NCBI RefSeq assembly: GCF_030253575.1
Contig: NC_080569.1
Span: forward strand, 6,304,001 to 6,368,000
Reading direction: 5' to 3'
Length of the DNA: 64,000 nucleotides
Source of the DNA: Rhododendron vialii
Taxonomy: Eukaryota; Streptophyta; Magnoliopsida; Ericales; Ericaceae
Shown: piece by piece, positions 56,268 through 59,200 of the stretch
How positions within the stretch are numbered: the stretch's first letter is position 1
Layout of the letters: every line of letters starts with the position of its first letter
The notes under the pieces: model-generated
Seen by the model: only the letters and a program-made list of their open reading frames with translations
What the model was told of the DNA's origin: nothing
Database searches by the model: none
Program-made: the position numbers and the translations under genes

Positions 56268-59200
56268 ATGGATCTCCTCCTACTAGAAAAAACCCTCCTA
56301 GGCCTCTTCGCCGCCACGCTACTCGCCATCGCCGTCTCCAAGCTCCGCGGCAAGCGGTTCAAACTCCCTCCCGGACCCATACCCGTGCCCGTATTCGGAA
56401 ACTGGCTCCAAGTGGGGGACGACTTGAACCACCGCAACCTGACCGAGTTAGCCAAGAAGTTCGGCCAGATACTCCTCCTCCGCATGGGCCAGCGCAACCT
56501 GGTCGTGGTCTCCTCCCCGAACCTCGCCAAGGACGTCCTCCACACCCAAGGCGTCGAGTTCGGGTCCCGCACCCGGAACGTCGTCTTCGATATATTCACC
56601 GGGAAGGGACAGGACATGGTGTTCACCGTCTACGGCGAGCACTGGAGGAAGATGAGGCGGATCATGACCGTCCCTTTTTTTACTAACAAGGTATGTGCAG
56701 CTTGTTATGTGTTTTGTGTATTTTATTATTTTATTTGAAAAAGATCGAGAGGCTGAGGGGTATGTCAAGTTTTCTCGGGAGTTGCAGCACTTGGAGGGTT
56801 TTGGTCTCTTCGAAGTTCTCTCGATTCATTTCTTTGTCTTATTGTAATGATTTCATTTTTTTTTTTTTTATCTCAATATCCTAATGAAGTTTTCTTTTGC
56901 CGATAAAAAAAAAAAGGTTGTGCAGCAGAACCGGTTCGGGTGGGAGGACGAGGCGGGCCGGGTGGTGGAGGACGTGAGGAAGAACCCGGAGGCGGCGACG
57001 AATGGGATGGTGTTGAGGAGGCGGTTGCAGCTGATGATGTACAACAACATGTACAGGATTATGTTTGATAGGAGGTTCGAGAGCGAGGAGGATCCGTTGT
57101 TTGTGAAGCTCAAGGCGTTGAATGGGGAGAGGAGTAGGTTGGCTCAGAGCTTTGAGTATAACTATGGGGATTTCATTCCGGTTCTGAGGCCCTTCTTGAG
57201 GGGGTACTTGAAGGTTTGCAAGGATGTGAAGGAGAGGAGGTTGAAGCTGTTCAAGGATTATTTTGTTGATGAGAGGAAGTAAGTTTTTTGTTTTTCGGTT
57301 TGGTTTTTAGTCAAAAAAGACGGTTGTTTGATAGCTATTGAAGAAAAATTAAAGATAGCACATTGCACGTCACCTGGTCATGTCCCAACATTGCTTTAAA
57401 ATCACACGTTTTCGTGAGATTTGAACACATGCATTCTGGTGCACCATGTTAACTTACTACCATACGTATGCGTGGGTTCACTATCACTTAGCGATGCACA
57501 TAATTTTAAATTGCAGGAAGTTAGGAAGCAGGAAGAGCATGGACAGCAATGGCAAATGTGCGATGGATCATATTTTGGATGCCCAAAATAAAGGAGAGAT
57601 CAATGAGGACAATGTTCTTTACATTGTTGAGAACATCAACGTGGCTGGTAATTCTTTTAGTTCTACTCTTTCCTACTTCCCCTTTCAATTTTCCACTTTC
57701 TAATCCTCTTATCTGTGTATTGTTAGATTTATTCCAATTTTGTAGACTAGCATATTTCATTTGTGTTAAAAAGTTCCGGATTAGTTCAACTATCAAATTA
57801 TCGGAGTATTTGTTTAGACCCATTTGGTTAGTGATCACCATTTTGTAATGAGTTATTTTGATGCACCTAATTTTGTTAGTACGTATTTTGTTAAGTGTGG
57901 GCCCGGTGCTATATGATCAATTTGGACCCATAATGGGCTGGGCCATTTTATAAGCACTAGAGGAGATCTTACTCCCATCCTCATATATATTTGTGTGTCT
58001 AGCCCATTGAGTTACACGGCTGTTGAAAAAAGAGGGAAGGGAGTAGATACTCCTCTCTGGGGAAAAATTGGTACGCATTGTACACGTGGGTTTCACATTT
58101 CTTCGACCATCTCAAGATCAAATTCAGTTCATCACTCAAGCTTCCATCTATGGCATCTTCATCTTCAGGTATGTTGCAGCTTAAAGTTTATTCACATGCT
58201 ATGAATTGGAGCAAGAAATTAGGGCTCGGAACTGTGAAAATTCTAACATGTACATGTATCCCATATAGTGGCTACTGAAGATCCAGCTTTAAGTACGTAC
58301 GTATTGAACAGGGTACACCTGTTTTAGTCGCGCGCTAAAACAAGCCGTGCACTCTTTCAAAGATTTTCCACTTAAGACCATGCTGTCTGATCTTTTGCTT
58401 CGAATTCATCGGTGTTACTGCTGTCATTTACGTAATTCTGATACTATTTGGACTTAGGCTCTTTTGGTCCGATGGTCTCGTACCTACATTTAAGTTTGAA
58501 GTTCGTATTGATAAAGTAGCTAGCGTCCACTCTAGCTCTGGCCGAGAAAAGAAAATCCACTTTCGTACTGGAATGTGCACGGGCTTGTACACAAGAAGTG
58601 AAATTTTTAGTTGGATTAGGTGTAGTAGTATTTGTGTCGAGATTACTGCACGTAGTTCTTACACTAAAAACTTAATTGACGTCCTATAAAAATGCGGGGA
58701 AAAGGTATGTACAGTACACCGAAAAAAGGGTGCTGTTTTTTCGTCCTGGCCGGGCGACAATGCTCCGAAATGGGCAAACATGCAGCTGGGAAAAACTTGT
58801 GTGGAAATGTCAAATAACGCTTGATCGAGTTGGACATTACTTTGCCTACTTGGGTCTACGAATTTGAAATTTTCCTTCTGACTTGGCAAGTATTAAGGAG
58901 TCTAAAATTGGTGGAATCCCACTAATTAACCATGGCTGGTTGGTGACCAATTCACTTTGTGCCCCCTAATAGAGGACTAGGTCAATGTCAACTACCACAC
59001 CTAACTGTGCTCACCATTTAATTAATTTCATAAGTACTAGTTAATTGAATTATCCTGTTGATTTTTGGGTATGGATCGGTTGAGAAATTGGGGTGGTAAT
59101 CTGGATTTAGATGGCTTACCTAATCCAAGATAATTATATTCTATTAATTTGTTGATTTCATAATCACAAAACTGATTCAGCTAATATGTTGGTTTGCGAA

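Follow-up and report, generated by a model that had tools for sequence, protein, structure and literature searches.

An extra intron in a cinnamate 4-hydroxylase gene of Rhododendron vialii, very probably made by a retroposon insertion

The window, a 64,000-nucleotide stretch of the Rhododendron vialii genome (532.6 Mb in 13 contigs), carries a gene for cinnamate 4-hydroxylase (C4H), the features of which are collected in Table 1. Once joined, its coding exons encode a protein of 504 amino acids that is identical to a database entry (P0003, ‘trans-cinnamate 4-monooxygenase-like [Rhododendron vialii]’) and shares 98% identity with proteins from R. griersonianum and R. molle. This protein matches the P450 profile PF00067 over nearly its full length (positions 1–459 of 462), and the sole solved structure that it matches at E ≤ 1e-100, 6vby, is that of a cinnamic acid 4-hydroxylase. 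Two introns are reported in each of three Prunella C4H genes (PMC11094360). Both of the usual C4H introns are present in the window gene, beside an extra one of 226 bp located within the canonical first exon: the two exon parts, of 423 and 362 nt, sum to the 785 nt of canonical C4H exon 1. The first-pass annotation had placed this split between the residues TNK and VVQQ, which the coordinates bear out exactly; the TNKVVQQ motif is invariant in all nine C4H proteins that were aligned.

Table 1. Features of the C4H gene and of its extra intron, in window coordinates (a slash marks a splice junction)
Feature	Position	Strand	Length	Remarks
C4H coding exon 1a	56268–56690	+	423 nt	Translation and join identical to P0003; exon 1 gap-free against the paralogue
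Presumed 5′ target-site duplication copy, AAGGTATGTGCAG(C)	56688–56701	+		Carries the donor AAG/GTATGT; one extra A
Novel intron (predicted), GT–AG, phase 0	56691–56916	+	226 bp	GTATGT...A11-G
Probable retroposon fragment, sense orientation	56702–56915	+	214 bp	Length includes the A tail; based on genomic matches and the alignment of 14 chosen copies
Putative branch site CTAAT	56881–56885	+		Branch A at 56884, 32 nt before the last intron base; candidate function
Putative polypyrimidine tract, GTTTTCTTTTGC	56889–56900	+		Pyrimidine-rich part of the retroposon 3′ end; similar in family copies; candidate function
Poly(A) tail	56905–56915	+	11 A	Pure A11; the final A belongs to the acceptor AG
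Presumed 3′ target-site duplication copy, AAGGTTGTGCAG(C)	56914–56926	+		Gives the acceptor G and codons GTT GTG CAG
C4H coding exon 1b	56917–57278	+	362 nt	
Canonical C4H intron	57279–57516	+	238 bp	Control; genome search returns itself only
C4H coding exon 2	57517–57647	+	131 nt	
Second usual C4H intron	57648–59498			
Last C4H coding exon	59499–60097	+	599 nt	Stop included

The extra intron has a GC content of 32%, compared with 59% and 53% for the flanking parts of the exon. Its donor lies within the upstream copy of a short direct repeat and is a good match to the usual donor consensus, MAG/GTRAGT. The unaltered host sequence would read AAG/GTTGTG, a poorer fit; that the donor GTATGT corresponds to one duplicate altered by a single extra A, as had been proposed, follows directly from the sequence. 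The acceptor AG is formed by the final A of the tail and the first G of the GGT in the downstream repeat copy, and the intron is indeed closed right after the poly(A), as the first-pass annotation had stated. Eleven A residues, and not pyrimidines, lead up to this acceptor, which is an untypical context. A YTRAY scan of the intron returned the putative branch site CTAAT as its single match. One AG is located between the branch A and the acceptor, ending 5 nt past the branch A; it is probably too near to be used, in which case the AG at the end of the tail comes first among those fit for use.

Retention of the intron would bring in a stop at codon 157; with the intron removed, all 504 codons can be read through. 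Splicing, as predicted from the sequence, would restore the conserved TNK/VVQQ junction, and this prediction is supported by the identical database protein (which may itself be a computed model) and by the premature stop on retention. In the modelled intron RNA the T run pairs with the A tail and the branch region is looped out. We rejected an unusual fold of the intron, the total energy being ordinary (z = 0.25; 115 of 200 shuffles equalled or exceeded its stability).

We then turn to the direct repeat. The same host sequence is found at the donor and acceptor ends, in agreement with the initial description: AAGGTATGTGCAG (56688–56700) and AAGGTTGTGCAG (56914–56925) are one extra A apart, and the next base, a C, also agrees, such that AAGGTATGTGCAGC at 56688 and AAGGTTGTGCAGC at 56914 match except for one A. 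The 11-A run said to terminate the insert is present and pure. A11 is followed by AAGGTTGTGCAG, with the other copy, bearing the extra A, at the 5′ end, which is the arrangement of a tail adjoining a target-site duplication. Within the window, the score of this repeat was reached in 18 of 20,000 random 30-mer pairs, in 11 of 29,949 GT-anchored pairs and in eight of the 2,628 pairs sharing AAGGT (the C4H pair included). A wide unanchored search, in which 400 bp upstream was compared with 45 bp downstream including the A tail, gave p = 0.088. Taken alone, the repeat is thus modest evidence; it becomes strong because the ends of the insert are fixed independently, by the homology of a repeat family and by an empty paralogous site, both described below. 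Two other origins were discarded: a tandem duplication of an AGGT segment, since the repeated length is only 12–13 bp, and an inverted-repeat DNA element, since the inverted repeats inside the intron involve just the T run and the A tail.

We searched the genome with positions 56688–56925 as the query. With 40 of 61 candidates scored, at least 40 matches were obtained, that is at least 39 besides the C4H insert itself, distributed over 12 of the 13 contigs with 69–93% identity and E values from 1.4e-36 to 3.4e-8. As controls, we used the canonical 238-bp intron of the same gene, which is as long as the query, and a 329-bp extra intron of the paralogue; each finds itself only. The A tail (query positions 218–228) is reached by 25 of the 39 other matches listed. 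Among the matches listed, alignments start anywhere from query position 12 to 188, with clusters at 30–51 and 86–106 that may mark conserved blocks and not true 5′ ends. A strong copy aligns from query position 15 (56702), just past the duplication and its shared C, and a weak one (69%, E = 1.1e-14) from position 12 (56699), still inside the duplication. Family homology therefore spans about 56702 (56699 for the weak copy) to 56915, and the insert is thus bounded by the two copies of the repeat. A second search, from family copy L018, gave at least 41 further matches, including the C4H insert and many found by the first search. The exact 3′-terminal pattern occurs at four separate sites in total, that of C4H included, and its reversed control at none. 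When the insert was aligned with 14 copies chosen from 30, a variable 5′ part was seen to give way to a conserved CGAGAGGCTGAGGGG-like block and then to AATGAAATTTTCTTTTGCCGAT-like ends, most of which are followed by A-rich tails. Multi-copy relatives, for which the first-pass annotation had proposed a search, thus exist, many of them with a common 3′ end and an A-rich tail, and the insert is not a single-copy sequence lacking retroposon kin.

We also looked for duplications around the family copies. Thirty were considered, of which eight lacked a clear 3′ end and were dropped. Among the 22 tested, likely duplications flank three: 15/16 bp for L038 (p = 0.003), 17/18 bp for L044 (p = 0.021) and 13/14 bp for L017 (p = 0.013). 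In the other 19, this low-power test detected none at p ≤ 0.025. The 5′ ends suggested by the duplications in those three of the 22 copies imply lengths of 192, 243 and 267 bp. Duplications at L018 and L028, with p ≤ 0.021 in a first version of the test that recognised the tail in 11 of 32 rows, were lost in the 22-copy version that replaced it, and a length of 493 bp for L022 is doubtful, because a different repeat accounts for much of the upstream half of this copy. Regarding the branch region, CTRAY occurs in three of the 25 family copies examined, never at the C4H position, and YTRAY in ten, five of which have TTAAT at about that position. In this post-hoc comparison, the branch-like site of the C4H copy appears somewhat better than that of its relatives.

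What machinery moved this family is a separate matter. We fetched 12 of the 150 zf-RVT places listed in the genome and found none that shares the 3′ end of the family: in nine a clear 3′ end can be made out, which is built along similar lines but differs in sequence, and three have no readable end. An L1 assignment accordingly draws no support from these 12 stretches. A Pfam search upstream of four family copies gave no match in ten translations (one copy being translated in a single frame). Of 14 copies fetched, two do have a same-strand zf-RVT place, 3.3 and 6.3 kb upstream, too great a distance for it to be regarded as attached. As to a tRNA-derived SINE, which would have a tRNA-like 5′ end, ARAGORN detected no tRNA in the two copies scanned, L018 and L024. 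Scans of viral contigs for the 3′ end of the insert and for C4H returned nothing. To speak of a ‘LINE’ is therefore to guess which machinery was at work; the data themselves show a poly(A) retroposon.

Other tailed sequences are present in the window. A strict motif scan over its tails returned the C4H insert only, and a looser tail motif three places (shuffle mean 0.05). At 21750–21939 there is an insert of roughly 150 bp with an A8 tail and an 18/19 bp direct repeat at its ends (AAACATTGAGGTAATCAAA); its 3′ end, AATGAAATTTCTTTTGCC, resembles that of the C4H insert. The similarity between the two inserts is weak, with seven of 500 shuffles as good for the whole C4H insert and 28 of 500 for its 5′ part alone. 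A tailed sequence at 32300–32489, which lies downstream of a copia-type element containing an RVT_2 domain, is likewise weakly similar to the C4H insert and has two blocks in common with the insert at 21.8 kb; no convincing duplication was found around it. Neither of the two is among the 40 genome matches listed for the C4H insert, and we therefore do not claim membership of its family for either. The window further contains a segment repeated in tandem every 726 bp at about 23240–24500, the copies of which all include ATGTATGGTGTGCTG repeats and an A run in their interior, and two SNORD34 matches, a tRNA-Arg (CCT) and snoR100 within 36974–37548, 49388–49460 and 61288–61398.

A paralogue provides the empty site. 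In a protein search of the genome, 85 of 502 candidates were scored, and among the 63 matches listed identities above 47% are confined to two genes, that of the window and another on contig C1. The first-pass annotation had spoken of an essential metabolic gene; the C4H enzyme gene stands, and ‘essential’ has to be softened since two such genes were found in the genome. Exon 1 of the C1 gene aligns with the joined exon 1 of the window gene over 785 of 785 nt with no gaps and 87.6% identity, and reads AACAAGGTGGTCCAGCAG uninterrupted across the insertion site. As for the intron in other C4H genes, this one paralogue was compared, and its exon 1 is whole. We selected 27 of 120 proteins for a tree, in which the window gene clusters with R. 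griersonianum, R. molle and one JGI protein (support 100/100), in a lineage separate from the other R. griersonianum copy; of the two C4H lineages in Rhododendron, the one that holds the window gene has the longer branch. The C1 gene is 94–97% identical, exon by exon, to that other R. griersonianum copy. From these sequence relationships, the window gene is one of two old duplicates, a status that may have eased tolerance of the insertion.

The paralogue has a peculiarity of its own, namely an extra non-canonical intron of 329 bp in its last exon (L031, G000:C1:44094500-44103000, reverse complement 6404–6732), where the window gene is uninterrupted (from 59873). Its boundaries read GACTTTAG/GTATGC ... 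CACGTTTAG/GTACC. A direct repeat of 8 bp, TTTAGGTA, is located at its ends, where no terminal inverted repeat was seen. It is possibly a second intron gain, or else an old intron.

Taken together, we consider it very probable that a retroposon insertion into exon 1 of C4H made the extra intron, with splice sites drawn in part from the target duplication. Three lines of evidence back target-primed retroposition, which had been put forward as the source of the intron: the insert is repeated in the genome, it is bounded by the repeat copies and the paralogous site is empty. A poly(A)-tailed copy, probably 5′-truncated, would have entered exon 1 of one C4H gene by target-primed reverse transcription at ...AAC/AAGGTTGTGCAG, duplicating 12–13 bp. 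The upstream duplicate would have become the donor, AAG/GT with one extra A giving GTATGT; this A may have arisen at integration or later. The 3′ end of the retroposon would have brought an AU-rich intron body, the CTAAT branch site and the TTTTCTTTT tract, and the acceptor AG would take its A from the end of the tail and its G from the start of the GGT in the downstream duplicate. Excision of one duplicate and of the insert (226 bp in all) would then give back the original reading frame and protein.

Three rival explanations were considered. Short direct repeats and filler may also result from non-homologous break repair, and a staggered double-strand break could have captured the tail end of the repeat, with fill-in yielding a direct repeat whose copies, as here, are one indel apart. 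The captured piece would nevertheless have to end exactly in its A tail at the junction, just as retroposition arranges, and many family copies end in a similarly A-rich way, so we regard such an event as very improbable. The insertion might instead be spliced inefficiently and the window gene be a decaying copy, as its longer branch and the eleven A before the acceptor could suggest. Against this stand the open spliced frame of 504 codons with its nearly complete P450 profile, the 98% identical proteins of R. griersonianum and R. molle, and a donor that fits the usual consensus well, and decay seems very unlikely to us. Finally, extra C4H introns do exist (two soybean C4H genes are reported to have three introns, with no position stated; PMC10184913), yet an old intron lost from other genes and later invaded by a retroposon is scarcely credible here, given that no host intron remains (56702–56915 is all family homology, both flanks being duplicated exon) and that the paralogue has no intron at this site.

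Returning to retroposition as the origin of the intron, we may wonder whether the family is predisposed to such events. Its 3′ end, with a branch-like TAAT, TTTTCTTTT and an A tail, could be a ready-made 3′ splice site, so that sense insertion at an exonic AAGGT would create an intron in one step, the duplication supplying donor and acceptor and the tail end the rest. Ericaceae would then have several introns of this origin, the C4H copy among them, which later changes of a single base in the donor and of one or two bases in the branch site would have refined. We put this forward tentatively, as a possibility that we would not yet favour.

Introns born of transposons are already known. A p-SINE1-like intron of the CatA catalase gene in Oryza was reportedly described by Iwamoto and coworkers in 1999 (cited in PMC9653197); judging by the title, it resembles the present case in that a retroposon-like sequence serves as an intron of a plant metabolic gene, and differs from it in gene, lineage and element. 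Introners are transposable elements that make introns on insertion, and in some of their families, as proposed here for the C4H intron, one splice site or both derive from the insertion site or the target-site duplication (PMC9860276). In the account given there, the majority move as DNA elements and form families of several introns, with none found in land plants, whereas the C4H intron is one retroposon copy. In maize, Ds has been reported to be processed as an intron in one observed case (Giroux et al., 1994, cited in PMC4256211), so that there, too, a plant gene treats an inserted transposon as an intron; Ds is, however, a DNA transposon with no retroposon tail. Across titles and abstract openings of the literature on C4H and Rhododendron introns and on retroposon-born plant introns, a scope outside which most subscription papers fall, we found no description of the C4H intron. 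The C4H case is rare in plants and unusually complete. The origin of spliceosomal introns is an old question for which few cases have been caught with all of their parts, and in the C4H gene a single genome is enough to read the family of the element, its tail, the target duplication, the paralogue with its site empty and the reading frame that is regained. A pangenome of 18 Rhododendron species exists (PMC13326988), and would allow tests of the age of the intron, of its fixation and of the order of the refining mutations.
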